Shown in pieces: positions 3,895-55,527 of a stretch of 64,000 nucleotides of DNA (positions are counted from its first letter, which is position 1; each line of letters opens with the position of its first letter). The stretch lies in contig NZ_VWSH01000001.1 in the NCBI RefSeq assembly GCF_008629695.1, positions 1,267,990 through 1,331,989 on the forward strand, given 5' to 3'. The notes under the pieces are model-generated. The model did not search any database, was not told where the DNA came from, and saw only the letters and a list, made by a program, of their open reading frames with translations. The translations under genes were made by a program, and so were the position numbers. This DNA is from Taibaiella lutea (GTDB lineage Bacteria > Bacteroidota > Bacteroidia > Chitinophagales > Chitinophagaceae).

Positions 3895-4902
3895 ATGAAA
3901 AATATGAAAATTGCATCCGGGACTTTAATGGTTATGCTTATGTTTTCTTTCTCAAGCAAGGGACAGCAAGTAGATAAACAAGTGGTGGTAGAACACTTTA
4001 CCAATACTTATTGTAGCGTATGTGCCAGCCGTAACCCGGGATTCTACAATAACCTTATGAACTTTCCACAGATTATTCATATCGTTTATCATCCAAGTTC
4101 GCCTTATGCATCCTGTCCTTTCAGTCAATATAACAAAGTAGAAAATGATGCACGTACTAACTTCTATGGAGTTTTTGGTGGCACACCACGTTTGGCTATT
4201 CAGGGAGCTCCCATTCCTGCCAGCGATAACTATGCAAATCCAACAATGTATGACGAGGCGTTAACAGGCAAAACGTCATTTGCCATGACGGCTGATCTAA
4301 AGCGGGAAGGCGGAAACATTAATTTGCGTATCGTAGTGAAAAAAGTGGATACATCTTCCGTTAATGCCTTGAGCTTATATGCTGTAGTTGTAGAAGACAC
4401 TATAAATTTTACGGGAAACAATGGTGAAACATTGCAGCAGGATGTATTCCGTAAATCCTTTGCAGGAGCCGCTCCTACTACTTTTGCCGTTCCTGCAAAT
4501 ATTGGGGATTCTACAGTATATACGCAATCGATGGCTATTGATCCGATCTGGGAAATCAATCAGGTTTATGCAATCGGTATATTAAGTACTCCGGACAAAA
4601 AAATAGAACAGGCAGCCAGATCATTAAAGCTGACAGGTAATACAACAGGCATCGGTAAAATTTCTACTGAAAAGAACTTTAAGGTTTATCCGATACCAAA
4701 TAATGGTAAACTATACATATCCGGGCCGTTCCATTCTGGTATGCACGCAGAAATCTGGAGCATTACAGGCAAATTATTAAAGACGGCTGCAATAAGTGCC
4801 AAAAACAATTTAATTGATATACATAGCCTGGCAAAAGGCAATTATATTTTGAAGATAAAAACGGAACATGGATTAGAGATAACGAAATTCAATCGTTTGT
4901 AA
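3895..4902 (+). CDS. Omp28-like thioredoxin-fold protein with T9SS type A sorting tail
   Basis: The 335-residue protein carries an N-terminal signal peptide ending near SSKGQQ. A thioredoxin-like Omp28 domain follows, opening with VVEHFTNTYCSVCASRN; the CSVC pair sits where a thioredoxin active site would be. The middle is beta-rich. The last ~75 residues (from FKVYPIPNNGKLYISG to KFNRL) are a Por secretion (type A) C-terminal domain, which sends the protein through the T9SS and anchors it at the cell surface. It lies 18 bp after a beta-barrel gene and 68 bp before a Crp/Fnr regulator. The redox role is inferred from the CxxC and not proven. Confidence 0.85.
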   Translation: MKNMKIASGTLMVMLMFSFSSKGQQVDKQVVVEHFTNTYCSVCASRNPGFYNNLMNFPQIIHIVYHPSSPYASCPFSQYNKVENDARTNFYGVFGGTPRLAIQGAPIPASDNYANPTMYDEALTGKTSFAMTADLKREGGNINLRIVVKKVDTSSVNALSLYAVVVEDTINFTGNNGETLQQDVFRKSFAGAAPTTFAVPANIGDSTVYTQSMAIDPIWEINQVYAIGILSTPDKKIEQAARSLKLTGNTTGIGKISTEKNFKVYPIPNNGKLYISGPFHSGMHAEIWSITGKLLKTAAISAKNNLIDIHSLAKGNYILKIKTEHGLEITKFNRL

Positions 4903-7562: not shown

Positions 7563-9368
7563 ATGAATATACGCAACATTGCCATCATCGCCCACGTTGA
7601 CCACGGCAAAACATCTTTGGTGGATAAAATTATCCATGCTACGCAGGTATTCCGTGATAATCAGGAAACCGGCGAATTGATTATGGATAATAATGACCTT
7701 GAGCGTGAGCGTGGTATTACTATCCTGAGCAAAAACATTTCTGTAACATACAAAGGCACAAAAATCAACGTTATTGATACTCCGGGTCACGCCGATTTCG
7801 GTGGTGAAGTAGAGCGCGTATTAAAAATGGCTGACGGTGTATTGCTATTGGTAGATGCATTTGAAGGTCCGATGCCTCAAACGCGTTTCGTGTTGCAAAA
7901 AGCTTTAGGTCTTGGTCTTCGCCCGATTGTTGTAATCAATAAAGTGGATAAGCCAAACTGTCGTCCGGATGAGGTTCATGACAAAGTTTTTGACCTTTTC
8001 TTCCAATTGGATGCTACAGAAGAACAATTAAACTTCCCTACTTTGTATGGTTCTGCTAAACAAGGTTGGTATAATACTTCATTAACGCAAACCGAAGATA
8101 TCAATCCTTTATTGGATGCGGTATTGGAGCATGTTCCGGAACCTGCGGTTTCTGAAGGAACAGTTCAGATGCAAATCACTTCTTTGGATTATTCTTCTTT
8201 CTTAGGTCGTATCGCCGTAGGCCGTGTAGCTCGTGGCGTACTTAGAGAAGGTCAGAATATTCAATTGTGCAAATTAGACAGCAGCCTTGTAAGAGGTAAA
8301 GTAAAAGAACTTTACGTATTTGAAGGGATGGGCAAGAAGAAAGTAGCAGAAGTAGCTGCAGGTGATATTTGTGCGGTTGTTGGTATCGAAGATTTCCAGA
8401 TTGGTGAAACAATCGCTGATTATGATAATCCTGAAGCATTGCCGGTTATCGCTATTGATGAGCCTACAATGAACATGCAGTTCAGCATCAATAACTCTCC
8501 TTTCTTTGGCCGTGAAGGTAAATTCGTAACCAGTCGTAATTTGCGTGACCGTCTTTACAAAGAATTGGAAAAAAACCTTGCATTACGTGTAAAAGATACA
8601 GATGATGCTGATAAATTCCTGGTTTATGGCCGTGGTATCCTTCACCTTTCCGTATTGGTAGAAACCATGCGTCGTGAAGGCTATGAATTGACAATTGGTC
8701 AGCCACAGGTTATCACTAAGGAAATTGACGGTGTTAAATGTGAGCCATTTGAAAATCTGGTTGTTGACGTTCCTGATGAATTTGCAAGTAAAGTAATCAA
8801 TCTGGTTACAATACGTAAGGGCGAAATGCTGATAATGGAGTCTAAAGGCGAAATGCAACACCTTGAATTCGATATGCCATCCCGTGGTTTGATTGGTTTA
8901 CGTTCACAAATGCTTACTGCTACTGCAGGTGAGGCTGTAATGGCGCATAACTTCTCCGAATACAAACCCTGGAAAGGTGTTATCCCCGGACGTAACAACG
9001 GCGTATTGGTAGCTAAACAAGGTGGTACTTCTACCGGGTATTCTATCGATAAGTTACAAGATCGTGGTTCGTTCTTTATCGATCCGGGTGAAGAAGTTTA
9101 CGGTGGTCAGATTTTGGCAGAGCACATCAAACCGGGCGATTTAAGCGTGAACGTTATTGAAGGTAAAAAATTGACAAATATGCGTTCGAGTGGTACTGAT
9201 GGTGCTGCAAATATCGCTCCTAAAATTCAATTGAGCCTTGAAGAATGTATGGAGTATATCCAACAGGATGAGTGTATCGAGTGTACGCCTCAAAGCATTC
9301 GTATCCGTAAAATTTATCTGGACGAAAACGATCGTAACAAGTATTCAAAAACACAAAAAGTTAGTTAG
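7563..9368 (+). CDS. typA: Translational GTPase TypA/BipA
   Basis: TypA/BipA is an EF-G-like GTPase that binds the ribosome and assists 50S assembly and stress adaptation. The 601-residue length is normal. G1 (AHVDHGKTSL, residues ~10-19), switch I with ERERGITI, G3 (DTPGHADFGGEVERV) and G4 (NKVDK) are all intact, followed by the beta-barrel domain, the EF-G domain III/V-like parts, and the TypA-specific C-terminal region with GTDGAANIAP. A putative degenerate AGTCGTTAGT-family repeat starts at the stop codon, and a stem-loop follows at 9466-9494. Confidence 0.98.
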   Translation: MNIRNIAIIAHVDHGKTSLVDKIIHATQVFRDNQETGELIMDNNDLERERGITILSKNISVTYKGTKINVIDTPGHADFGGEVERVLKMADGVLLLVDAFEGPMPQTRFVLQKALGLGLRPIVVINKVDKPNCRPDEVHDKVFDLFFQLDATEEQLNFPTLYGSAKQGWYNTSLTQTEDINPLLDAVLEHVPEPAVSEGTVQMQITSLDYSSFLGRIAVGRVARGVLREGQNIQLCKLDSSLVRGKVKELYVFEGMGKKKVAEVAAGDICAVVGIEDFQIGETIADYDNPEALPVIAIDEPTMNMQFSINNSPFFGREGKFVTSRNLRDRLYKELEKNLALRVKDTDDADKFLVYGRGILHLSVLVETMRREGYELTIGQPQVITKEIDGVKCEPFENLVVDVPDEFASKVINLVTIRKGEMLIMESKGEMQHLEFDMPSRGLIGLRSQMLTATAGEAVMAHNFSEYKPWKGVIPGRNNGVLVAKQGGTSTGYSIDKLQDRGSFFIDPGEEVYGGQILAEHIKPGDLSVNVIEGKKLTNMRSSGTDGAANIAPKIQLSLEECMEYIQQDECIECTPQSIRIRKIYLDENDRNKYSKTQKVS

Positions 9369-9465
9369 TTGTCAGTGAATAATTGATAGTCAATCGTAGA
9401 AAGTTTCTGATAAACGTATTCGCAATTGAGCATTCAAAATTCACTATTTACTACACATAATAATA

Positions 9466-9494
9466 GAAAAAGCTGCCCAAACGGTAGCTTTTCC
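9466..9494 (+). terminator. Stem-loop after typA
   Basis: AAAAGCTGCC and GGTAGCTTTT form a 10-bp stem (one G-T pair) around a short loop, ending in a short T run. It sits 100 bases after typA and 18 bases before arfB. Confidence 0.5.
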
Positions 9495-9511
9495 TATTTA
9501 TAGAGGGGCTT

Positions 9512-9904
9512 ATGATTGATTTTTCATCAGAAATATTCTTCCGGACTGCCAGAAGCGGAGGAAAAGGCGGACAAAATGTGAACAAGGTAGAAACCATGGT
9601 GGAAGCATATTGGCAGGTGAGTTCGTCCGTTTTCTTTAATGCTGAACAGAAAATGATGATTGCTGAAAAGCAGCAAAACAGAATTAATTCGGAAGGTTTT
9701 TTGATTGTAAAAAGCAGTGAATCCCGCACTCAGTTAGCTAATAAGAAAATTGTATTGGGAAAAATACTGCTTCTGGTAAATCAGAGCATTGTAAAACCTA
9801 AAAAACGATTGGCCTCAAAACCAACTAAAACCATCATTCAGAAGCGCCTGGATGCCAAGAAAATGCTTGGTGAAAAGAAGATGCGCAGACGAAAGGATTG
9901 GTAA
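9512..9904 (+). CDS. arfB: Alternative ribosome-rescue factor ArfB (peptidyl-tRNA hydrolase)
   Basis: ArfB releases nascent chains from ribosomes stalled on truncated mRNA. The 130-residue protein carries the catalytic GGQ at residues 19-21 inside RTARSGGKGGQNVNKVET, the release-factor signature. The C-terminal third is a lysine/arginine-rich helix (QKRLDAKKMLGEKKMRRRKDW) like the tail that enters the empty mRNA channel. There is no second release-factor domain, so it is not a normal RF1/RF2. Confidence 0.93.
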   Translation: MIDFSSEIFFRTARSGGKGGQNVNKVETMVEAYWQVSSSVFFNAEQKMMIAEKQQNRINSEGFLIVKSSESRTQLANKKIVLGKILLLVNQSIVKPKKRLASKPTKTIIQKRLDAKKMLGEKKMRRRKDW

Positions 9905-11434
<1,530 letters not shown>

Positions 11435-11444
11435 ATTATATTGT

Positions 11445-11474
11445 ACTTGTCAGACCTTTAAATGTCAGACAAGT
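11445..11474 (+). repeat. Small inverted/direct repeat after spt
   Basis: ACTTGTC (11445-11451) and GACAAGT (11468-11474) are inverted repeats, and TGTCAGAC occurs twice as a direct repeat inside them. It lies just before the spt terminator. Its function is unknown. Confidence 0.4.
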
Positions 11475-11485
11475 AATTTTAATAG

Positions 11486-11520
11486 AAAATGTCCTGTAAA
11501 TTTTTTGCAGGACATTTTTT
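11486..11520 (+). terminator. Rho-independent terminator after spt
   Basis: A 10-bp stem AAATGTCCTG / CAGGACATTT with a T-rich loop, followed by a T run. Confidence 0.8.
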
Positions 11521-11599
11521 GTAGAATATCCGATCGTTAACCAGTTGCTATTTTCATGTAAATAGTAACAACATTTCATTTCTGTTTTATCTTTATGAC

Positions 11600-12739
11600 A
11601 TGATCCAGATTAAGCCAATCCAAAATAAGGGAAGTGAACTGCGCACCTTCATTGACTTTCCGCACGATTTATACAAAGACGACCCGTATTATGTGCCAGA
11701 GCTATTTATGGCACAACGCGATTTGCTTTCACCAAAACATCCCTTCTTTCTGCATGGAAGAATCCAGTTGTTTCTTGCTTATCAGGACAATAAGGTTGCA
11801 GGCCGTATTGCTGCCATTTTTAATGGTAACCACAACGATTTCAACAAAGTCAACGATGGCTTTTTTGGCTTTTTTGATGTTATCAACAATCAGGAAGTGG
11901 CAAATGCACTTTTGAGCGCCGCTGAAAAATGGTTGAAAGATCAAAAAGTCGATTCCATGATTGGTCCTGTAAATCATTCTACCAACGAAGCCTGTGGTTT
12001 ATTGGTTGATGGTTTCGATTCCTCTCCCATGGTATTGATGACCTATAACAAACCTTATTACCTTCCCTTGTTGGAGCACTATGGCTTGACAAAGCAGGTA
12101 GACCTTGTTGCATATGCTTTATATGATAATGATTTGGGAGATAAGCCTGTTCGTTTGCAGGAAGCATTGACGCAACGCCTTGCTCAAAAAGGCATTACCA
12201 TCCGTTCCTTTGATTTGAAGCATAATTTCAAAAGTGAGCTTGAAAAGTTCGGGAAAGTATACAATGCAGCATGGGATAAAAACATGGGTTTTGTGCCGAT
12301 GACTGCCGAAGAATTTAATTTTATGGGTAAGGACCTTAAGATGATTGCAGATACCGATTTTTGCCTTGCTGCCGAGCATAATGGAGAAGTTGTCGGTATA
12401 GCGCTGTGTTTGCCCGATATCAATCAGGTTTTAAAGAAAATCAAAAGAGGCCGTTTGTTTCCTACAGGTATTTTCAAATTATTATTTGGCAGGAAAAAAA
12501 TCAATGCGCTCAGAATTATTGCTTTAGGCGTAATGGAGCCTTATCGTAAAATGGGTATTGAAGCATGTTTTTATGCTACTATTATGAAAAACGGATTAGG
12601 AAAAGGAATAAAATTTGGCGAAGCTTCCTGGATGCTGGAACATAATGATATGATGAATAAGGCTATTGAGCACATGAACGGAAAACGATATAAGACTTAT
12701 CGTTTGCTGGAAAAGAAACTCAATACTGCAGAAAATTAA
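11600..12739 (+). CDS. GNAT-fold acyltransferase, candidate ceramide synthase
   Basis: The 379-residue protein reads as a double-length GNAT protein. Residues ~1-130 contain the substrate-side half (FIDFPHDLYKDDPYYVPE, then AGRIAAIFNGNHN). The C-terminal half holds the acyl-CoA-binding strand and pyrophosphate loop, ALGVMEPYRKMGIEACF near residues 310-327. It lies directly after serine palmitoyltransferase. In Caulobacter a GNAT-family protein was shown to be the bacterial ceramide synthase; the position next to spt and the fold make the same job (N-acylation of dihydrosphingosine) plausible here. This is an inference from context. Another N-acyltransferase substrate is possible. No membrane segments are evident. 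A strong terminator follows. Confidence 0.7.
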   Translation: MIQIKPIQNKGSELRTFIDFPHDLYKDDPYYVPELFMAQRDLLSPKHPFFLHGRIQLFLAYQDNKVAGRIAAIFNGNHNDFNKVNDGFFGFFDVINNQEVANALLSAAEKWLKDQKVDSMIGPVNHSTNEACGLLVDGFDSSPMVLMTYNKPYYLPLLEHYGLTKQVDLVAYALYDNDLGDKPVRLQEALTQRLAQKGITIRSFDLKHNFKSELEKFGKVYNAAWDKNMGFVPMTAEEFNFMGKDLKMIADTDFCLAAEHNGEVVGIALCLPDINQVLKKIKRGRLFPTGIFKLLFGRKKINALRIIALGVMEPYRKMGIEACFYATIMKNGLGKGIKFGEASWMLEHNDMMNKAIEHMNGKRYKTYRLLEKKLNTAEN

Positions 12740-12764
12740 TTAAAAAGTAGAATTTCAGAAGGAT

Positions 12765-12796
12765 AAAGGCTGCTTTCATGCAGCCTTTATTTTTTT
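12765..12796 (+). terminator. Rho-independent terminator after the GNAT gene
   Basis: A 9-bp perfect stem AAAGGCTGC / GCAGCCTTT with a 6-base loop, followed by a T run. Confidence 0.85.
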
Positions 12797-12899
12797 ATTT
12801 CAAAATAAATAAGCCTGAATTTCGTTTCTGTTTTTGAAATACAGGAAAAAATCAGTTGACTACTTCAACTTTTCTAAATAAGGCAATTGATAAAACTAA

Positions 12900-12915
12900 T
12901 TAAACGTTTGTTTAA
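12900..12915. promoter_or_regulatory. Palindromic candidate operator at the MIPS promoter
   Basis: Perfect 6-bp arms TTAAAC / GTTTAA are separated by 4 bases (GTTT). The site overlaps the -33 region of the MIPS promoter, where a bound repressor would block RNA polymerase. The cognate regulator is unknown. Confidence 0.45.
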
Positions 12916-12939
12916 ATGGTAGATTAATTATTATCTTTG
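12907..12939 (+). promoter_or_regulatory. Promoter of inositol-phosphate synthase gene
   Basis: TATCTTTG (12932-12939) followed by CACCC is a full -7 match, and TTTG (12907-12910) about 21 bases upstream can serve as -33. Confidence 0.6.
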
Positions 12940-12986
12940 CACCCTGAAAAGGAGAATACGAGTATAAAATATTTTATAATAAAACA

Positions 12987-14318
12987 ATGAATATGGAAAA
13001 TCAAGTAGCAGCAGCAAGTGGTAAGTTGGGCGTTCTGGTACCGGGTATGGGTGCCGTAGCCACCACGTTTATCGCGGGTGTAGAAGCAACCAAAAAAGGA
13101 TTAGCAAAACCAATTGGCGCATTGACTCAAATGAGCAACATCCGTTTAGGTAAACGCACTGAAAACCGCTATCCGAAAATTAAAGATTTCGTTCCCTTGG
13201 CAAGTTTGGAGCAAATCGTTTTTGGTGGTTGGGACGTTTATAATGAAAATGTATATCAGGCTGCAACCAATGCGAAAGTTTTACAACAAACTCAATTAGA
13301 TGCTATCAAAGCGGAATTGGAAGCTATTACCCCAATGCCTGCTGTATTTGACAGAGAATATGTTAAGAATCTTGACGGACAACACATTAAAGCAAAAGAC
13401 ACCAAATGGAACTGGGCATTAGCTTTGATGGAAGATATCAAAAATTTTAAAGAAAAAAATAATTGCGAACGCCTGGTAATGGTTTGGTGTGCTTCCACTG
13501 AGAAATACATTGAAACTACCGACATTCATGAAACTATTGAAGCATTCGAGGCAGCAATGCAGGCAGACGATGATCGTATTGCACCTTCAATGATTTATGC
13601 TTACGCGGCTATTAAAATGGGTGTTCCTTTTGCAAACGGCGCGCCTAACTTAAGTTGCGATATTCCTGCTTTGGTTGATTTAGCTAAAGAATTGGGCGTT
13701 GCAATTGCAGGTAAAGATTTCAAAACCGGTCAAACCTTAATGAAAACAATCGTTGCTCCCGGTCTTGCTGCACGTGCATTGGGCGTTAACGGTTGGTTCT
13801 CCAGCAATATTTTAGGTAACAGAGATGGTTTGGTATTGGATGATCCGGATAACTTCAAAACAAAAGAAGTATCTAAACTAAGCGTTTTAGAAGAAATATT
13901 CCAGCCTGAAGACAATCCTGATCTTTATGGTGAATTATACCACAAAGTTCGCATCAACTACTATCCGCCGCACGGTGATAACAAAGAAAGCTGGGATAAT
14001 ATCGACATCTTCGGATGGATGGGCTACCCTATGCAAATCAAGATCAACTTCCTGTGCCGTGACTCTATTTTAGCTGCACCGATTGTACTTGATTTGGCTT
14101 TATTTATGGATTTGGCACAACGCGCCAACATGAGCGGCATTCAGGAATGGTTATCTTTCTATTTCAAATCTCCGCAAACTGCCGAAGGTTTGAAACCGGA
14201 ACATGATATCTTCAAACAACTAATCAAATTGCAAAACACATTACGCCACATGATGGGTGAAGATTTGATTACACACTTAGGTTTGGATTATTATCAGGAT
14301 TTAGTAGAATCGTTGTAA
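12987..14318 (+). CDS. ino1: Myo-inositol-1-phosphate synthase
   Basis: MIPS converts glucose-6-phosphate to inositol-3-phosphate with NAD as internal cofactor. The 443-residue protein starts with a Rossmann NAD loop (GKLGVLVPGMGAVATT, residues ~11-26) and contains conserved stretches such as ANGAPNLSCDIPALV, GKDFKTGQTLMKT and LGVNGWFSSNILGNRDG, which are MIPS hallmarks. It has its own promoter with a palindrome on it. It precedes a PgpA-type phosphatase by 87 bp. In Bacteroides, MIPS and a PgpA-like phosphatase likewise sit together in an inositol-lipid cluster. No inositol-catabolic gene is nearby, which argues for lipid or osmolyte synthesis. Confidence 0.95.
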   Translation: MNMENQVAAASGKLGVLVPGMGAVATTFIAGVEATKKGLAKPIGALTQMSNIRLGKRTENRYPKIKDFVPLASLEQIVFGGWDVYNENVYQAATNAKVLQQTQLDAIKAELEAITPMPAVFDREYVKNLDGQHIKAKDTKWNWALALMEDIKNFKEKNNCERLVMVWCASTEKYIETTDIHETIEAFEAAMQADDDRIAPSMIYAYAAIKMGVPFANGAPNLSCDIPALVDLAKELGVAIAGKDFKTGQTLMKTIVAPGLAARALGVNGWFSSNILGNRDGLVLDDPDNFKTKEVSKLSVLEEIFQPEDNPDLYGELYHKVRINYYPPHGDNKESWDNIDIFGWMGYPMQIKINFLCRDSILAAPIVLDLALFMDLAQRANMSGIQEWLSFYFKSPQTAEGLKPEHDIFKQLIKLQNTLRHMMGEDLITHLGLDYYQDLVESL

Positions 14319-14328
14319 ATAATGGTTG

Positions 14329-14376
14329 AATTATCAGATGGTTGAATTGTTTCCATATTATAACCATCTGATAATT
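14329..14376. repeat. 15-bp perfect inverted repeat between MIPS and pgpA
   Basis: AATTATCAGATGGTT (14329-14343) and its exact reverse complement (14362-14376) flank an 18-base loop. There is no T run, so it is not a standard terminator. TGGTTGAATT also occurs twice as a direct repeat at the left arm. Confidence 0.75.
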
Positions 14377-14405
14377 AAGCAATAAAACCATTAAACAATT
14401 AATCA

Positions 14406-14852
14406 ATGAAACTAATCGCTTCCATTTTTGGAATTGGATATATACGCAAAGGCGGTGGTACGGTTGCTGCCGCCTTTGCTGTACTTATTTGGTGGCTTTT
14501 GTTTAAAAATATTGGCACGGATTTTGCTGTAGAGATAGGTATTACATTTTTAGTAACAGCATTAGGAGTCTGGGCAGGCAATAAAGTAGAACCCGAATGG
14601 GGGAAAGATAGCTACAGAGTTGTAATTGACGAAGTAGCCGGTATGTTTATCAGTCTTTTATTCATACCCCTTGATTGGAAATGGCTTTTAACAGGATTTG
14701 TATTATTCCGCTTTTTTGATATTGCGAAACCATTGTATATCAGACGTATGGAAGCCTTTAAAGGAGGCTGGGGTGTTATGCTCGATGATGTTTTGGCCGG
14801 CATTTACGCAAATATTGTTTTGCAAATCATCATTTTATTTGTGAATAAATAA
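14406..14852 (+). CDS. pgpA: PgpA-family phosphatidylglycerophosphatase-like protein
   Basis: A 148-residue integral membrane phosphatase with about four hydrophobic segments. The PgpA signature is present: GTVAAAF near the N-terminus, and the acidic pair in VVIDEVAGMFISL (residues ~75-85). PgpA removes phosphate from phosphatidylglycerophosphate. Next to MIPS in Bacteroidota, homologues act in inositol-lipid synthesis on phosphatidylinositol phosphate, so that substrate is likely here. Both activities cannot be told apart from sequence. It probably shares the MIPS transcript, given the 87-bp gap and same strand. Confidence 0.88.
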   Translation: MKLIASIFGIGYIRKGGGTVAAAFAVLIWWLLFKNIGTDFAVEIGITFLVTALGVWAGNKVEPEWGKDSYRVVIDEVAGMFISLLFIPLDWKWLLTGFVLFRFFDIAKPLYIRRMEAFKGGWGVMLDDVLAGIYANIVLQIIILFVNK

Positions 14853-15006
14853 TCTCCGGTTCCCGGACCAAATTTATTTACATACCCTTCTCTTCCGTTT
14901 AAAAGAGGAAATTGATTTAAAAAAATAGCAGCAGCTATAGGGGTTTTATTGCATCAGAGTGTTTCTATATATTGGAAGAGATGCACGTAAATTTTAACAA
15001 ACAGAC

Positions 15007-15408
15007 ATGAAAACATTTCTAAAAGCACAAGCAACATCTCTCATTTCAACAATGGTGGATTATGTTATGTTTGGACTGCTTCATGAAATTTTTGGTGTTT
15101 GGTACCTCATTGCAAACGTAATAGGCGTTGCATCAGGAGGATTGACAAATTTTCTATTAGGAAGATATTGGGCTTTCTCGTCTAAAGAAGAAGAAATTCA
15201 GGGGCAAGCCTTGAAATTCTTCATTGTGTGGATGGGAAATCTGATCTTAAACACAAGCCTTCTGTTCGGCCTGAACGAAACGCTTGGAAATAAAAATGCG
15301 TGGATATCAAAAATTGTGGTATCCATAATAATTGGAATAGGTTATAACTATGTACTTCAGAAATTTTTCGTTTTTAAAAAGGACAATGACCAGCTCGCAG
15401 AAGCCTAA
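15007..15408 (+). CDS. GtrA family membrane protein
   Basis: The 133-residue protein has four predicted transmembrane helices, and the GtrA-like phrases NVIGVASGGLTNFLLGRYWAF and NYVLQKFFVFK sit at the usual places. GtrA proteins are thought to flip polyprenyl-linked sugars or to help modify cell-surface lipids and polysaccharides. Its last 23 bases overlap the start of the DUF5686 gene, so translation of the two is probably coupled. Confidence 0.85.
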   Translation: MKTFLKAQATSLISTMVDYVMFGLLHEIFGVWYLIANVIGVASGGLTNFLLGRYWAFSSKEEEIQGQALKFFIVWMGNLILNTSLLFGLNETLGNKNAWISKIVVSIIIGIGYNYVLQKFFVFKKDNDQLAEA

Positions 15409-17932
15409 ACAACTCATTGCGCTTGTCCTCGTTATGTTGACGGCGTTCAGCATTCATGCCCAGACCTTGATAAAAGGCGTTGTCAAAGATGCCAAGTCGG
15501 GTCAGGTTATGCCCTTTGTCAGTGTTGGCATTAAAGGAACCACATCGGGTACAACTACCGATGTGAATGGCTATTATGAAGTCGGCACTTCAGAAAACGT
15601 AACTAAAATCGAATATTCTTTTTTAGGTTACATTACCGTTACAAAAAGTTTTACCGTCGGGCAGACTCAAACCATAAATGTGACTATGGAGGAAGATGCA
15701 CATACGTTAGATGAAGTTGTCGTTAAACCAAAAAAAGAAAAATACAGAAATAAAAATAATCCTGCTGTCGAACTCATTCGTCAGGTAATTGACCATAAGG
15801 AGCAAAACAGGATGAAGCACTATGACTATACCCATTATCTGGAATATGATAAAATGCAGATGGCGCTTAATAACACACCTCAGGGTTTTAAGAACAGCAA
15901 ATTATTAAAGAAATATCAGTTCGTATTAGATAATGTAGATACAACGAGATTTGAAGGAAAAGCATTATTGCCTATTTATATCGAAGAGAACATCTCTCAA
16001 AAATATTTTAAAAGATCACCTGAAAAACATAAAACAATTGTTACTGCCAACAAGCACGTAACCTTTGATGAAAGATATATCAACAACGAAAGCATTTCTA
16101 CATATATGAAGAACCTGTATCAGAATGTGGATCTGTATGAAAACAATATTTACGTTGTTACTAATTCCTTTTTGAGTCCCATTGCAGACATGTCGCCTTC
16201 ATTCTACAAATTTTACATTACCGATACGGTTATGAACCAGGGCGTCAAATTGGTGGAGCTCTCTTTCTACCCCAGAAATAAAAGCGACCTTTTGTTTCAG
16301 GGTAAAATGTACGTAACCTTAGACGGCCATTACGGTGTGCAAAAAGCCGTAATGACAGTAAATAAAGATATTAACCTTAATTGGGTTACCGATCTTCACC
16401 TTACCCTCGATTTTGAACGCAGTGCTGATGAAACCTTTCATTTATCCAAAACAGACTTGTTAGTAAACTTTGGCGTGTTCCAGGGCAAAAAAGGATTGTT
16501 TGGTGAGCGTACTGTTACCATCAAGAATTTTGACATGACCACACCGATTGCCGATTCTGTATTTGATGGTCCGTCTACTGTAACACTTGCAGATGCTTCT
16601 TCGCATTCCGATAGTTATTGGATGGAGAACCGTCCGGATTCTTTGTCTACTACTGAGGCCAATACCTATAAAAATATGGACAGCCTCAACAACATGAAAT
16701 CCTTCAAAAGACTGATGTGGTTTACCACAACTTTCCTTGCGGGCTATAATGTGAACGGGCCCGTAGAGTTTGGTCCATTAAGTACTTTTTACAGTTTCAA
16801 CCCTGTTGAAGGTTTCAGGTTAAGGTTTGGTGGCAGAACAACCCCCGAACTGAGCAAACGTGTGTTTGGCGAGGCTTACGGCGCCTATGGTTTTAAAGAT
16901 AAACGATGGAAATACTACGTTGGAGGCACCTACTCCCTCAACAATAAAAGTATTTATGCCTATCCCTTAAATTATATAAGAGCAAGCGTGCAGGAAGAAA
17001 CCAGTATTCCCGGACAAAGCCTTCAGTTTGTACAGGAAGACAACTTCTTGCTTTCCTTTAAGCGTGGTGTGAATGATAAATACATGTACAATAAAATCTA
17101 CAGCCTGGATTGGGTTGCAGAGTTTGGCGACCACATGGGTGTAAAAGCAACTTTTAAAAACTGGAAGCAGGAAGCTGCCGGCGGTTTGAACTTCATTCAT
17201 GCCGATGGCACCAACGATACTATCCCTACCATCCATACATCAGAAGTAGGACTGGAATGGAGATGGGCCCCGCACGAACAATTCTTTCAAAGAAAACTGT
17301 ACAGAACGCCCATACCAAACGTTTATCCTATTATGACCTTAGGTGTGAAATGGGGTATTCCTGATTTCCTGGGAGGTGATTATAAATACAAAACTTTTTA
17401 CGGAAGCGTTTACAAAAGATTCTATTTATCGCAATTAGGTCTTGCTGATGTAGTAGTAAATGCCGGTTATATTTTCGGAAGCGTGCCTTATCCCTTATTG
17501 AATATTGCACAGGCCAACCAGACCTATGCCTATCAATTGCAGGCTTACAGTATGATGAACTTCCTGGAATTTGTAAGTGATAAGTACGTGAGCTTAAATG
17601 TTGATTATCACATGTACGGTTTCATCTTTAATAAAGTCCCTTTATTTAAAAAGCTGAAACTACGTGAAGTTGCTACCTTTAAATTATTGTACGGTGGTTT
17701 GAGAGATGAAAACCGTCCTGATAAAAATCCTGATCAGTTGAAATTCCCTACCGATCAGTTTGGGAACGTGTCAACTTATTCATTGGAGAAACAACCTTAT
17801 ATGGAAGTCAGCGTTGGTGTGGAAAATATCTTCAACCTCATTCGTGTCGATTTCGTGAAAAGGCTTTCTTACCTCGAGTATCAGAACGTGCCTAAATATG
17901 GTGTCAGAGCAAGAATCAATTTCGATTTCTAA
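15386..17932 (+). CDS. DUF5686 outer-membrane protein with carboxypeptidase-like regulatory domain
   Basis: The protein has about 848 residues. The start at 15386 is chosen because a good ribosome site (AAAGGAC) lies just upstream and a signal peptide (LIALVLVMLTAFSIHAQ) follows at once. Residues ~25-110 form a carboxypeptidase-D-like beta sandwich (GVVKDAKSGQVMPFVSVGI...), then the large DUF5686 region with a C-terminal half of amphipathic beta strands ending RARINFDF, as in outer-membrane barrels. The family is abundant in Bacteroidota and its substrate is not established. The start overlaps the GtrA gene by 23 bases. An inverted repeat sits just past its end. Confidence 0.88.
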   Translation: MTSSQKPKQLIALVLVMLTAFSIHAQTLIKGVVKDAKSGQVMPFVSVGIKGTTSGTTTDVNGYYEVGTSENVTKIEYSFLGYITVTKSFTVGQTQTINVTMEEDAHTLDEVVVKPKKEKYRNKNNPAVELIRQVIDHKEQNRMKHYDYTHYLEYDKMQMALNNTPQGFKNSKLLKKYQFVLDNVDTTRFEGKALLPIYIEENISQKYFKRSPEKHKTIVTANKHVTFDERYINNESISTYMKNLYQNVDLYENNIYVVTNSFLSPIADMSPSFYKFYITDTVMNQGVKLVELSFYPRNKSDLLFQGKMYVTLDGHYGVQKAVMTVNKDINLNWVTDLHLTLDFERSADETFHLSKTDLLVNFGVFQGKKGLFGERTVTIKNFDMTTPIADSVFDGPSTVTLADASSHSDSYWMENRPDSLSTTEANTYKNMDSLNNMKSFKRLMWFTTTFLAGYNVNGPVEFGPLSTFYSFNPVEGFRLRFGGRTTPELSKRVFGEAYGAYGFKDKRWKYYVGGTYSLNNKSIYAYPLNYIRASVQEETSIPGQSLQFVQEDNFLLSFKRGVNDKYMYNKIYSLDWVAEFGDHMGVKATFKNWKQEAAGGLNFIHADGTNDTIPTIHTSEVGLEWRWAPHEQFFQRKLYRTPIPNVYPIMTLGVKWGIPDFLGGDYKYKTFYGSVYKRFYLSQLGLADVVVNAGYIFGSVPYPLLNIAQANQTYAYQLQAYSMMNFLEFVSDKYVSLNVDYHMYGFIFNKVPLFKKLKLREVATFKLLYGGLRDENRPDKNPDQLKFPTDQFGNVSTYSLEKQPYMEVSVGVENIFNLIRVDFVKRLSYLEYQNVPKYGVRARINFDF

Positions 17933-18401: not shown

Positions 18402-18621
18402 TGATTGGCTTTGATGTGATTGCTTTACTTTTAGCGGGCCAAAGATAAGTTATCGCAGCAGTATAGCTTCCATCTTAATTCATAATTGCTGTATTTGCAA
18501 TATTCAAGACCTATAAAATCAATCGTTGTTCTTTTTATCTTTCACAAAAAAAGAATACAAATAATCGAATAAGCAGAAATTAACAACCACGTCTTAAATT
18601 TTTACGATATTTGCATTCTAT

Positions 18622-19059
18622 ATGCGTAAATTAATTGCCATACCATTACTTGTCTTGTACATCACAGCCGTTTCGGGCATGATGATACAGTTGCATTTCT
18701 GTGGCAGTAAATTACTTTCGTGGAATGTAAATAAAGCAAAAGCATCCTGCTGTTGCGAGTCTACGCCAAAATCAACAAAGAAAAATCCTGAAGCAAAACA
18801 GCTGGAAAGCAAAGGAGATGATTGCTGCAAGGATAAAACTATTACACTAAAGATAAATCAGGATCAGAACAGGGCAAGTCAGTTACAATTGCAATTAGGC
18901 GAATTGCAAACAGTTGCAATGATTACCTATGTTGTACCACAGGTTTTCGCATTATCACAATCTGATACGCATGCTGCTTATCAGGCCAACGCCCCACCCG
19001 GCCTCTGGCAAAACATTCCGCTTTATAAACTCCATGCCCGTTTTACTTATTACGGTTGA
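18622..19059 (+). CDS. HYC_CC_PP family small cysteine-rich protein
   Basis: The 145-residue protein has an N-terminal membrane/signal segment (residues 4-22), then QLHFCGSK, a CCC run near residue 43 and DDCCKD near residue 68, and a late APPGLW. This order (HxC, CC, PP) is the pattern of a Bacteroidota family that sits beside HMA proteins and TonB receptors. The paired cysteines suggest binding of copper or another soft metal in the periplasm. An ATATTTG element ends about 9 bases before the ATG, so the leader is very short. A stem-loop at 19078-19106 follows. Confidence 0.75.
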   Translation: MRKLIAIPLLVLYITAVSGMMIQLHFCGSKLLSWNVNKAKASCCCESTPKSTKKNPEAKQLESKGDDCCKDKTITLKINQDQNRASQLQLQLGELQTVAMITYVVPQVFALSQSDTHAAYQANAPPGLWQNIPLYKLHARFTYYG

Positions 19060-19077
19060 TTTGTTTTTATGAGATCA

Positions 19078-19106
19078 CTTCTCTTTGCTTCAAAACAAGA
19101 GAAGAA
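19078..19106 (+). terminator. Weak stem-loop between HYC_CC_PP and HMA genes
   Basis: CTTCTCTTTG and CAAGAGAAG can pair (one bulge), followed by A/T-rich sequence. It may terminate or attenuate transcription into the HMA gene. Confidence 0.4.
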
Positions 19107-19150
19107 AATTTTATTATTAAAAACATTTCTTACCAGATAATTAAAACAAA

Positions 19151-19510
19151 ATGAAAACAATATTCGGCATTATTGCCATCCTTCTGAGTTCCTTCACAGT
19201 TTCTTTTGCACAAGACAATAAAGACATCACTACCGAAAAAATCAAAGTTTCGGGCAATTGCGGCGATTGCAAAAAACGCATTGAAAAAGCTGCTTACATA
19301 CCGGGTGTAAAAAGAGCAGAATGGGACAGCCATTCGCAAATCCTGACAGTTGTCTATCGCCCTTCCAAAACATCGGCAGAAAAAATCGAAACGAGCATAG
19401 CCAATGTTGGTTATGATGCCGGAGATATTAAAGCCACAGACGAAGCCTACAAAAAATTACCTCAATGCTGCGCTTATAGAGAAGATGATGCGCATGTTCA
19501 TGAAGATTAA
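19151..19510 (+). CDS. Secreted heavy-metal-associated (HMA) domain protein
   Basis: A 119-residue protein with a signal peptide (MKTIFGIIAILLSSFTVSFAQ) and one HMA ferredoxin-like domain. The usual metal-binding loop GMxCxxC is here SGNCGDCKKR, with cysteines at about residues 37 and 40. A further CC near residue 109 and a histidine-rich tail (DDAHVHED) could also bind metal. Its end overlaps the following TonB receptor by 11 bases, so the two are surely co-expressed. It probably carries copper or a related ion in the periplasm. Confidence 0.88.
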   Translation: MKTIFGIIAILLSSFTVSFAQDNKDITTEKIKVSGNCGDCKKRIEKAAYIPGVKRAEWDSHSQILTVVYRPSKTSAEKIETSIANVGYDAGDIKATDEAYKKLPQCCAYREDDAHVHED

Positions 19511-21794
19511 TTTCGCATTACATCAAACTTTTAAAATAAAAAGACATACCCCTCTTTTTATTACCGGAATATTGACTTTATCCGGCTTTCTCCTTTCCGC
19601 CAAAACATCTGCGCAGGATGCAGGAAAGCATACGGTTAGCGGAAAAGTCTCTGATATTCAAACTAAAGAAACGTTACCCGGTGCGGCTGTCAGTACAATT
19701 CCTGCAGAAGCCGGGACATTCAGTGCTGCCGACGGGACATTTTCTCTGGAGCTTGAAACAGCCCGGCAATTAGTGGTTACTTATGTGGGTTATAAAAATG
19801 ACACTATTCCTCTGTCACAAGGGCCGGAACAGCTTTCCATAGAACTAAAACCTTTGAAGACGCTGAAAGAGGTAACCATTACAAGCCGCAGAAAGAGTAC
19901 GGAGATCGGTTTATTGGAGCCCGCAAAAATGGAGAAAATCGGTTCCAAGGAATTGATGAAAGCTGCATGTTGCAATCTCAGCGAGAGCTTTGAAACCACA
20001 CCTTCCGTAGACGTTGGCTTTACAGACGCAGTGAGTGGTTACAAACAAATCCAGATGCTCGGACTTGCGGGCAGCTATACTTCTTTCACAAGGGAAAACA
20101 TTCCTGACGTAAGAGGATTGGCGGCTATTACAGGCCTTACTTTTACGCCGGGCGCTTTTGTGGAAAGCATGCAATTGAGCAAAGGTACCGGCAGCGTAGT
20201 AAATGGTTATGAAGGCACTGCCGGACAAATCAATATTGAATGGCGCAAACCTTTTGAAGAAAAGGAGCCTGCTTTATTCCTGAATGGCTATCAAAGCGCT
20301 CAGGGGCGTTCTGAAATGAATGCTATATTAAGCCATAAGTTTAATGACGAATTGAGCAGTAACTTATTGCTGCATGCCAAGAGCAATTGGATGAAAGTAG
20401 ACCAGAATCATGATGGCTTCCTCGATAATCCTTTGGGTAATTCTTTTGTGGGTTCCAACCGTTGGTTCTGGTTCAGTCCGAAAGGCTGGGAAATTCAGGG
20501 TGGCGTAAAAGCTGTTTACCTTGACAATACAGGTGGACAAAAGTCCTTCGAAAAAGGTACGGAACAGATTGCAGGCAACCCCTGGGGCTATCAACAAAGC
20601 CTGACAAGAATGGAAGCCTGGGCCAAAATAGGGAAAATAAACCTTACCAAACCCTACCAAAGCATGGGATTGCAATTGTCGGGTGTATATCATGATCAGC
20701 AAAGCCAATATGGTATAAGGGAATATGACGGCAGACAGCAGAGTTTTTATGCCAATTATATTTACCAGAGCATCATCAATAATACCAATCATGTTATTAA
20801 AGGAGGTGTCAGTTTCTCTGCCGATGCTTATAAGGAAACATTTGTAGGCACTGCTTATAACCGTACCGAAATTGTGCCGGGCGCTTTTATGGAATATGCT
20901 TATAACTATCAGAAGAAATTCAATATGGTAGCAGGTTTGAGGGCAGATTACCACAATCTTTTCGGGGCATTTGTAACACCTCGTTTACATCTCAGGTATG
21001 CACTATCCGATAATAGTGCTTTGAGGGCATCTGCAGGCAGGGCGCAAAGAACAGCAAATATTTTTGCAGAGAATACAGGCTATCTGGCCAGCAGCCGCAA
21101 TTTCGTAGTATCGGGCACCGACCCCGAAACACCTTACGGACTGAAGCCCGAAGTGGCCTGGAATATGGGTTTGAACTATACAAAAAAGTTTATGCTCGAT
21201 TATCGTGACGGCGCTTTCAGTGTAGATTATTATTATACAAACTTCACCAATCAGGTAGTAGTAGATGTTGAAAAACCGGGTGAAGTTTCGTTCTACAATC
21301 TGAATGGTAAATCTTATGCTCATAGTTTTCAGGCACAATTAGATTATGAGGTAATCCATAAACTGGATGTAAGGCTGGCTTACCGTTTTTATGACGTAAA
21401 AAGCACTTATAACAATATCCTGAAAGAGAAACCATTGGTGGCTGCCCATCGTGCATTCATCAACCTGGGTTATGAAACAAACAGCAACTGGAAGTTTGAT
21501 TATACGTTCCAATGGACGGGCTCCAAGCGTTTACCGGAGCGTTATACGCATCATGAAATGATTGTAGCGGAAGGTAATTCTCCTTCCTTTATCCAGATGA
21601 ATGCACAGATAAGCAAAAGCTGGAAGGAAGGAAAAATTGAAGTTTATGCCGGTGGTGAAAACCTGACGGGTTATATGCAGCACGATATGATTTCAGGCGC
21701 TGAAAATCCTTTTGGCAAAAGCTTTGACGGCTCACTTATCTGGGGGCCTGGCATGGGGAGGAATTTCTATGTTGGGTTCAGGTATGGGTTGTAG
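19500..21794 (+). CDS. TonB-dependent receptor of a metal-handling module
   Basis: The protein has about 764 residues. The start at 19500 is used because a signal-like segment (LFITGILTLSGFLLSAKTSAQ) follows, and the ATG overlaps the HMA gene stop. Domains: carboxypeptidase-like regulatory region (~residues 45-130), plug (~140-280), then a 22-strand barrel ending FYVGFRYGL. The plug begins with AACCNLSESFETTPSVDVG, a cysteine pair found in receptors linked to copper genes. With the HMA and HYC_CC_PP proteins upstream it forms a probable metal uptake or export module. Which metal is not shown by the sequence. Confidence 0.88.
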   Translation: MKINFALHQTFKIKRHTPLFITGILTLSGFLLSAKTSAQDAGKHTVSGKVSDIQTKETLPGAAVSTIPAEAGTFSAADGTFSLELETARQLVVTYVGYKNDTIPLSQGPEQLSIELKPLKTLKEVTITSRRKSTEIGLLEPAKMEKIGSKELMKAACCNLSESFETTPSVDVGFTDAVSGYKQIQMLGLAGSYTSFTRENIPDVRGLAAITGLTFTPGAFVESMQLSKGTGSVVNGYEGTAGQINIEWRKPFEEKEPALFLNGYQSAQGRSEMNAILSHKFNDELSSNLLLHAKSNWMKVDQNHDGFLDNPLGNSFVGSNRWFWFSPKGWEIQGGVKAVYLDNTGGQKSFEKGTEQIAGNPWGYQQSLTRMEAWAKIGKINLTKPYQSMGLQLSGVYHDQQSQYGIREYDGRQQSFYANYIYQSIINNTNHVIKGGVSFSADAYKETFVGTAYNRTEIVPGAFMEYAYNYQKKFNMVAGLRADYHNLFGAFVTPRLHLRYALSDNSALRASAGRAQRTANIFAENTGYLASSRNFVVSGTDPETPYGLKPEVAWNMGLNYTKKFMLDYRDGAFSVDYYYTNFTNQVVVDVEKPGEVSFYNLNGKSYAHSFQAQLDYEVIHKLDVRLAYRFYDVKSTYNNILKEKPLVAAHRAFINLGYETNSNWKFDYTFQWTGSKRLPERYTHHEMIVAEGNSPSFIQMNAQISKSWKEGKIEVYAGGENLTGYMQHDMISGAENPFGKSFDGSLIWGPGMGRNFYVGFRYGL

Positions 21795-54516: not shown

Positions 54517-55527
54517 ATGGCAAAATTAACTTCTTTTATCTGGTCGGACAACCCTGAACCACACAAAGCTCGCACTAAAGAGATTATTCAAAAGCATCCT
54601 GAAATCAGAGGCCTGATCGGACGTAATCCTTACACTTTTTTAGTTATTTTATTGTGCGTTGCTGTCCAGGTTGGCCTTGCAGCGGTAATCTATTCGTATA
54701 ATCTGCCTTGGTGGGCTGTTTTTGTGGTATCCTACCTCGTGGGTGCTTTCGCTTGCCACACTTTGTATGTGTGTGTACACGAATGTTCGCATAACCTTAT
54801 TTTCAAAAACAGGACTTTAAATATTATAGCAAGCCTGATTGCTAATTTGCCGCAGGTTTTCCCAAGCTCTATTTCTTTCACCAAATACCATCTGAAACAC
54901 CACTCTTTCCAAGGTGTAGAAGCGGTTGATGCCGATATGCCTTTCCGTTGGGAGGCCAAGCTTATCAATAATGCTCCGGTTGGTAAAACTTTATGGTTGC
55001 TATTCTACCCTGTGTTTCAGGCATTGCGCCCGTTGCGCCTGACCAAAGAAATCAAAATCTTTGATGCATGGACAGTGGTAAACTGGCTTATCCAGATCGT
55101 TTTTATGGTGGCTATTTTCAAATTCCTGGGCGTGAAAGCAGGTATTTATTTAATAGCAAGTTTCTTCTTTTCTATCGGCCTGCATCCGTTGGGCGCACGC
55201 TGGGTTCAGGAACACTTCCTTACACATGGCGATCAGGAAACTAAGAGCTATTACGGACCTTTGAATACTGTAAACCTTAACGTTGGTTATCATAACGAGC
55301 ATCATGATTTCCCTTCTGTTCCATGGAATAAGTTACCAAAAATCAGAGAGTTTGCAGGGCATTATTATAATACTTTGGGCTACCATACTTCATATACTGT
55401 TTTGTTGTTTCAATTCTTGTTTAATAAAGAAATATCGGTTTATTCGAGAGTCGCGCGCGACAACAGAGGTAAAAAGAAAGTAGAAAAAACCAATGCGAAA
55501 GACGTGGTTTTAGATAGTAACGATTAA
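54517..55527 (+). CDS. Sphingolipid delta-4-desaturase-like protein (dihydroceramide desaturase family)
   Basis: The 336-residue membrane protein reads much like animal DEGS1. The N-terminal lipid-desaturase segment has FIWSDNPEPHKARTKEI and KHPEIRGL (DEGS1: EWVYTDQPHADRR, KYPEIKSL). All three histidine boxes are present: HECSH at 88-92, HLKHH at 125-129 and HNEHH at 259-263. The phrase SYYGPLN, then NVGYHNEHHDFP, is nearly identical to the eukaryotic enzyme, as is YSR near the end. Four or more membrane helices lie around residues 40-80 and 180-225. It would introduce a trans double bond at C4-C5 of dihydroceramide, using O2. Delta-4-desaturases are rare in bacteria, and the same window has SPT, so the substrate match is strong. 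A C4-hydroxylase or an acyl desaturase remains possible. Confidence 0.88.
   Translation: MAKLTSFIWSDNPEPHKARTKEIIQKHPEIRGLIGRNPYTFLVILLCVAVQVGLAAVIYSYNLPWWAVFVVSYLVGAFACHTLYVCVHECSHNLIFKNRTLNIIASLIANLPQVFPSSISFTKYHLKHHSFQGVEAVDADMPFRWEAKLINNAPVGKTLWLLFYPVFQALRPLRLTKEIKIFDAWTVVNWLIQIVFMVAIFKFLGVKAGIYLIASFFFSIGLHPLGARWVQEHFLTHGDQETKSYYGPLNTVNLNVGYHNEHHDFPSVPWNKLPKIREFAGHYYNTLGYHTSYTVLLFQFLFNKEISVYSRVARDNRGKKKVEKTNAKDVVLDSND

Follow-up and report, generated by a model that had tools for sequence, protein, structure and literature searches.

A DEGS-like gene in the Taibaiella lutea window

Does the reading frame at positions 54517-55527 of a 64,000-nucleotide stretch of the Taibaiella lutea genome (the window) encode a sphingolipid delta-4-desaturase of the kind known from animals as DEGS1, and if so, on which lipid would it act? 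A first-pass annotation of the window had called the product a desaturase of this family (DES), proposed dihydroceramide as its substrate with an SPT encoded in the same window, and regarded the resulting delta-4 lipid as a notable and possibly unreported feature.

The frame opens with an ATG and runs without interruption over its whole length (Table 1). Its product carries a Lipid_DES domain (PF08557) at residues 5-39 (E 6.1e-14; 51.6 bits, Pfam cut-off 23), an FA_desaturase domain (PF00487) at residues 64-279 (E 6.7e-27; 95.3 bits, Pfam cut-off 29.7), and three histidine boxes, HECSH (88-92), HLKHH (125-129) and HNEHH (259-263), the third of which lies within NVGYHNEHHDFP (residues 255-266). 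Bar the Y/F alternative, the third-box motif NVG[YF]HNEHHDFP is kept in 26 of 30 aligned sequences, window DES included; the variants were NIGYHNEHHDFP in L034 and L035, NVGYHNEHHDFA in L019 and NVGYHNEHHDFQ in L025 (L and G numbers are our own designations for loci or contigs and for genomes). Lipid_DES matched once in the 4.27-Mb T. lutea genome (5 contigs) and in none of 14 control genomes, so the DES assignment is not a chance one; FA_desaturase matched seven times, DES being one of the seven. The open 336-residue frame, both domains, the histidine boxes and NVGYHNEHHDFP confirm a DES-type protein at this position, and membership of the DES/DEGS family is borne out by the domains, the third box and the similarity to DEGS1 described below. 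As judged from its sequence, the gene is predicted to encode a membrane di-iron, O2-dependent sphingolipid delta-4-desaturase.

An AlphaFold2 model of DES, built from an input alignment of the window protein and 19 relatives (pLDDT 84.1, pTM 0.85), gave two Foldseek matches in the PDB at E < 0.001, 8xks_K and 8xqw_M (TMq 0.59 and 0.61), titled as chloroplast motor complexes, which contain a fatty-acid desaturase subunit; the next PDB match was AlkB (8f6t, E 8e-3). No solved DES structure was among the Foldseek matches listed, and five of the six best viral fold matches were named desaturases. The few significant fold matches of the model appear to fit a membrane desaturase. Searches of PDB sequences with DES alone or as a profile returned weak matches to unrelated proteins only.

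A comparison with DEGS1, which the first-pass annotation had proposed as a check, came out on the side of the animal enzyme: window DES was 36% identical to human DEGS1 over 320 residues (E 3e-71, with one approximate DEGS1 sequence), whereas the best match among five FA_desaturase paralogues of its own genome had an E of 3e-4. The comparison excluded a further paralogue, L005, which contains an internal TGA; L005 (G000:C1:115142-115822) and L006 (90082-90762) are FA_desaturase matches approximately 25 kb apart, both in frames of 282 residues, and it is the frame of L005 that holds the TGA. That DES is instead an ordinary acyl-lipid, fatty-acid or carotenoid desaturase or ketolase is hardly credible: the genome has six further FA_desaturase matches and DES itself weakly matches the NCBIfam models for GntB, CrtR and CrtW, but these scores (25.9-29.5 bits) lie far under the cut-offs of 350-475, Lipid_DES is found at DES alone, and the five compared paralogues are barely similar to it. 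A carotenoid or fatty-acid desaturase was rejected as the identity of the protein on those NCBIfam scores.

Window DES and animal DEGS1 have in common both domains, the length class, the three histidine boxes and an identical NVGYHNEHHDFP; unlike DEGS1, bacterial DES is found in relatives' operons together with bacterial-type SPT, GNAT and epimerase genes, and some bacterial members occur in genomes without a recognisable SPT. Two loci of family f24, L009 and L011, are 43-49% identical to the approximate human DEGS1 sequence (L009, 49%) versus 40-42% to window DES. In a tree that included this one approximate sequence, DEGS1 grouped with L009 and L011 (support 95/99) within the bacterial family; the DEGS1 branch was long, and the very long paralogue L003 of T. 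lutea was also placed among DES. A nesting of eukaryotic DEGS inside bacterial DES diversity, as this sequence tree would have it, is a lead only.

DES lies within a sphingolipid operon in relatives

A scan of named genomes yielded at least 581 DES relatives among 596 stretches, of which the best 80 were analysed as named loci. In two lineages of the window's DES clade (L042/L043 and L048; 72-75% identical), DES is found inside a tight operon with the order SPT, GNAT, epimerase, MIPS, PgpA, GtrA, DUF5686, CDP-alcohol transferase, DUF4833, fatty-acid hydroxylase, DES and PAP2. On the contig of L042 (L171), the genes from SPT through PAP2_3 to a TetR gene are carried by one strand with intergenic gaps of -50 to 48 bp (Table 1), and the contig of L048 (L172) has the same gene order. 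The L043 contig starts within MIPS, and the genes that it shares with L042 show 98-100% identity; since L042 is a Bacteroidota metagenome-assembled genome (MAG), L043, whose title names a MAG of the betaproteobacterium Azovibrio restrictus, is probably mis-binned, and the same may be true of L097 (titled KSB1).

Window DES was joined to L042 and L048 with 92% SH-aLRT support in a quick tree, and in a careful tree this was an open fork. Lipid-cluster genes were found in the DES flanks of 4 of the 80 loci (the best 80 of at least 581; flanks of at most 8 kb, some limited by contig ends), and two of these four, L042 and L043, are near-copies. A partial cluster in L098 lies on the opposite strand approximately 3 kb past DES and is without hydroxylase or DES. 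Clustering of the neighbours of these 80 loci and of the window gave no general partner for DES, the commonest family occurring in 8 loci.

The CDP-alcohol transferase passes the NCBIfam model PIPSynBT1523 (395.8 bits, cut-off 350), and the PAP2 proteins of L171 and of T. lutea score 324.5 and 339.3 bits, respectively, against the phosphoinositol dihydroceramide synthase model NF052609, under its cut-off of 480. The presence of a PF04116 hydroxylase within a sphingolipid operon makes hydroxylated ceramides likely products as well. With close relatives of DEGS inside the sphingolipid operons of two lineages, some bacteria probably make unsaturated ceramides of the animal type.

The T. lutea genome holds the operon genes in three blocks

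The SPT which the first-pass annotation had noticed in the window is real (Table 1); it scores 604 bits to the SPT chains 3a2b/8guh, versus 245 to SulA (7u7h) and 242 to cysteate acyltransferase (28eh). The genes of the relatives' operon, minus the epimerase and the regulator, are distributed over three blocks: window positions 10229-17932, DES itself, and a stretch upstream of the window (L177). DES is thereby placed outside the slot between hydroxylase and PAP2, at a distance of approximately 60 kb from it, and a distance of 43 kb within the window separates DES from SPT, so that the two do not share an operon. The GNAT protein of the window is 58.5% identical to the L171 protein encoded between SPT and epimerase. 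A genome-wide search for an orthologue of the epimerase found none (best match 61.5 bits, 32%); with SPT and GNAT present and no orthologue of this CerR-like protein found, another reductase must serve.

Table 1. Coordinates of DES and of sphingolipid and sulfonolipid genes in the window, elsewhere in the T. lutea genome, and in the operon of L171
Feature	Position	Strand or location	Remarks
DES, sphingolipid delta-4-desaturase homologue	54517..55527	+	336 aa; Lipid_DES, FA_desaturase and three His boxes
Serine palmitoyltransferase (SPT)	10229..11434	+	NF047600 732 bits, cut-off 640; Ala at the SulA Lys position
GNAT-fold protein, candidate bacterial ceramide synthase	11600..12739	+	PF00583 26.4 bits; bCerS-like by position and fold only
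Myo-inositol-1-phosphate synthase (MIPS)	12987..14318	+	PF07994 353 bits, PF01658 112 bits; 82% to operon MIPS
PgpA-family phosphatase, BT_1525 kind	14406..14852	+	PF04608 139.5 bits
GtrA-family membrane protein, BT_1524 kind	15007..15408	+	PF04138 74.5 bits; 44% to operon GtrA
DUF5686 protein, operon member in relatives	15350..17932	+	PF18939 170 bits; 52% to operon copy
CDP-alcohol transferase + DUF4833, single ORF	L177:6826-8154	upstream of window	79/54% to L171 genes
Fatty-acid hydroxylase	L177:8186-8809	upstream of window	PF04116; 60% to L171 gene
PAP2	L177:8767-9774	upstream of window	51% to L171 gene
SulA-type cysteate acyltransferase	G000:C3:373976-375109		600 bits to SulA 7u7h, 575 to 28eh, versus 235 to SPT
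L171 SPT	18458-19528	same strand as DES	operon start
L171 fatty-acid hydroxylase	9701-10309	same strand as DES	PF04116
L171 DES	8678-9655	between hydroxylase and PAP2	gaps of 45 and 5 bp
L171 PAP2_3	7722-8672	same strand as DES	after DES, before TetR

The BT_1522-BT_1526 cluster of Bacteroides thetaiotaomicron, as dissected by knock-outs in the published account, makes phosphoinositol dihydroceramide, with BT_1525 as the phosphoinositol-phosphate phosphatase (PMC9246714). MIPS, PgpA, GtrA, CDP-alcohol transferase and PAP2-type genes resembling those of this cluster, the last being like phosphoinositol dihydroceramide synthase, are all present in T. lutea; beyond what is described for BT_1522-BT_1526, the relatives' operons hold SPT, GNAT, epimerase, fatty-acid hydroxylase and DES (PMC9246714). 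As in the spt/bcerS/cerR arrangement reported for Caulobacter, SPT adjoins genes of acyltransferase and reductase type in L171 and L172; in contrast to that pathway, the bCerS and CerR identities here are by fold and position only, and the L171 epimerase is without an orthologue in T. lutea (PMC11087976). The word desaturase is absent from the main text of both accounts (PMC9246714, PMC11087976).

The CDP-alcohol transferase and DUF4833 domains, encoded by two genes in L171 and in L172, form one 442-residue reading frame in L177. A second, more distant copy of the PF04116 hydroxylase is encoded on contig C3 of T. lutea. Elsewhere in the window, the product of positions 3895-4902 carries a T9SS type A sorting domain and weakly resembles an Omp28-related family.

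DES occurs with SPT or with a SulA-type enzyme

Cysteate acyltransferase is the enzyme that initiates sulfonolipid synthesis, and a counterpart of SulA/cysteate fatty acyltransferase (7U7H, 28EH) is encoded elsewhere in the T. lutea genome; its route is a separate pathway which competes with SPT as a source of DES substrate. One residue, Lys281 in SulA and Ala in SPT, is described as separating the two enzymes (PMC9304779). We placed this diagnostic residue at the PLP-binding lysine + 30, where the T. lutea cysteate acyltransferase aligns with SulA (AKSLPM) and has the lysine. Alanine occupied the position in the window SPT and in all 30 loci L121-L150, two of which come from DES- genomes.

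Of the DES+ genomes that the phylum sample contains from the window's class, 9 of 15 had SPT over the cut-off; the remaining six (G150, G391, G146, G249, G371 and G387) have the lysine enzyme and no match to the SPT model above 358 bits. Among DES- genomes, 100 of 355 were examined for SPT. Within the window's class, 9/15 DES+ compared with 2/31 DES- genomes had SPT (Fisher p 0.00018, uncorrected for kinship). In other classes, SPT was found in 25/25 DES+ versus 62/69 DES- genomes examined (p 0.18); as SPT is nearly universal there, its co-occurrence with DES is uninformative. The SPT-like enzymes of the DES+ genomes from other classes (477-526 bits) were considered as possible cysteate acyltransferases, a reading that was rejected since the two compared with solved chains are closer to SPT: L142 scored 398 bits to SPT versus 219 and 189, and L135 scored 419 versus 244 and 229. 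Alanine was at the diagnostic position in all 20 loci read (L131-L150), against a total of 25 such genomes. In genus g8, DES is present and SPT absent in G150, and the converse holds for G383. The DES family pairs with either the SPT or the SulA-type pathway, and either N-acylated base may be a substrate across the family; the dependence of DES on the head group thereby becomes a testable enzyme question.

SPT was searched for in 50 of the 80 named DES+ genomes (the best 80 of at least 581 relatives). It was over the cut-off in 30, and the 424-bit partial match of L049 was also counted as SPT+; the other 19, that of Puia dinghuensis among them, were without SPT, including four not titled MAG (L072, L077, L115 and L119). 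Sixteen of these 19 have a 280-297-bit match spanning model positions 24 to 392-393, which by score only is of the cysteate acyltransferase class. SPT status, mapped onto a 57-row DES tree that lacks L115, changed 8 times compared with a shuffled mean of 17.2, and none of 500 shuffles was as low. The window's DES clade (31 rows, support 100/100) has SPT in 23 rows: the window, each of the 14 named rows whose title does not mention a MAG, and half of the 16 MAGs. The 8 rows that lack SPT are MAGs without exception and may be incomplete. In the sister clade, SPT was present in 13 of 26 rows, and cultured species without SPT are among the remainder. When the window's clade was taken together with four outgroup rows, SPT status was less clustered, with 5 changes compared with a shuffled mean of 7.3, and 7 to 11 of 500 shuffles were as low.

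Which lipid would DES desaturate?

We consider it probable, from gene content and operon context, that window DES is a delta-4-desaturase of dihydroceramide or phosphoinositol dihydroceramide. DES enzymes hold a di-iron site by histidines, use O2 and two electrons, and remove hydrogen at C4 and then at C5, leaving an E double bond beside the 3-hydroxyl. In T. lutea, an N-acylated dihydro-long-chain base, either dihydroceramide or its phosphoinositol form, would be supplied by SPT, the GNAT protein and a reductase; DES would desaturate the C4-C5 bond, adjoining the 3-hydroxyl, in the E configuration to give a sphingosine-type ceramide, and this would gain a phosphoinositol head group through the products of the MIPS, CDP-alcohol transferase and PAP2 genes. 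Reduction and N-acylation may follow the bacterial order here; CerR of Caulobacter is described as periplasmic and acting after acylation (PMC11087976).

The dihydroceramide substrate of the first-pass annotation is upheld in part. An SPT in the window does not suffice to fix the substrate, because a SulA-type enzyme is also present and some DES+ genomes have the SulA type only; what speaks for dihydroceramide is the linkage of DES in relatives' operons to SPT, GNAT and a phosphoinositol-ceramide-synthase-like gene, and this operon evidence, together with SPT status in the window's clade, favours a ceramide substrate here. Weighing against it are the SPT-less DES+ genomes, half the rows of the sister clade included, the discordance within genus g8, the small number of DES flanks with cluster genes, the open fork between window DES and L042/L048, the PAP2 scores under the cut-off and the lack of an epimerase orthologue in T. 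lutea. With the SulA-type enzyme (diagnostic lysine, 600 bits to 7u7h), N-acyl capnine is an available substrate in T. lutea, and it might be the physiological one, giving delta-4-unsaturated sulfonolipids, or both bases might be accepted regardless of head group. We regard this as unlikely, even though the enzymes of the six DES+ genomes with lysine are 57-68% identical to the T. lutea cysteate acyltransferase, 16 of 19 SPT-less named genomes have a match of its class (by score only), the sulfonolipid of Salinibacter has an allylic double bond, and some other sulfonolipids are unsaturated. Against it, a cysteate acyltransferase gene was present in 0 of the 80 fetched DES flanks, compared with a sphingolipid cluster in 4 of the 80 (best 80 of at least 581); in G031, G051 and G124, DES is accompanied by a single SPT-like enzyme, the sole match of its superfamily in each, so that no cysteate acyltransferase was seen; and SPT is present in 14/14 of the named non-MAG-titled genomes of the window's DES clade.

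Improbable, and more so than a sulfonolipid substrate, is that the enzyme is a C4-hydroxylase or, as DEGS2 is, a bifunctional desaturase/hydroxylase, producing bases of the phytosphingosine type. Sequence alone cannot separate the two activities, and the DES family includes bifunctional members with the same domains. The third box of window DES is, however, identical in every letter to that of human DEGS1 (approximate sequence), which is mainly a desaturase, and the operon already has a hydroxylase gene of the PF04116 family, which possibly acts on fatty acids. The (phosphoinositol) dihydroceramide desaturase is the preferred reading.

Implications

Flectobacillus major reportedly contains 4(E)-unsaturated bases (Batrakov and co-workers, 1999, 2000), which renders it doubtful that a bacterial delta-4 lipid is unreported, as the first-pass annotation had thought possible; the 4-ene lipid may have been known in bacteria ahead of the assignment of a gene. 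The literature matches listed (titles and abstract openings of open-licence papers) included no report that assigns a bacterial sphingolipid delta-4-desaturase, which is weak evidence of absence. The family itself is known, and operon linkage lends genomic support to its predicted substrate.

If DES is active, 4-ene bases of bacterial origin exist, so that 'd17:1/d18:1' species in environmental or host-associated samples are not necessarily eukaryotic, and bacterial sphingosine-type lipids could take part in host signalling. A joint reading would combine an animal-like sphingolipid branch that is encoded whole in one operon, from SPT, N-acyltransferase and reductase to fatty-acid hydroxylase, delta-4-desaturase and phosphoinositol-ceramide synthase, with a desaturase that serves both ceramides and sulfonolipids and a DES that crossed between domains; this combination is possible and somewhat doubtful, and if true, the sphingosine double bonds of eukaryotes and bacteria share one enzyme.

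Distribution of the DES family

Lipid_DES was over the cut-off in about a tenth of the sampled phylum genomes (40 of 395, in 26 of 171 genera) and in 43 of 195 genomes of the family (44 at E 0.001). In a correction to the first-pass annotation, the DES gene is not peculiar to this species, and its one-off acquisition by T. lutea was rejected on the same count. No DES relative was found in the viral contigs scanned, nor in plasmids by tblastn at 1e-20. All four genomes of the window's genus among the matches listed are DES+, and other members of the genus may lack DES; the closest relative among the matches listed is the DES of Taibaiella chishuiensis, at 86% identity.
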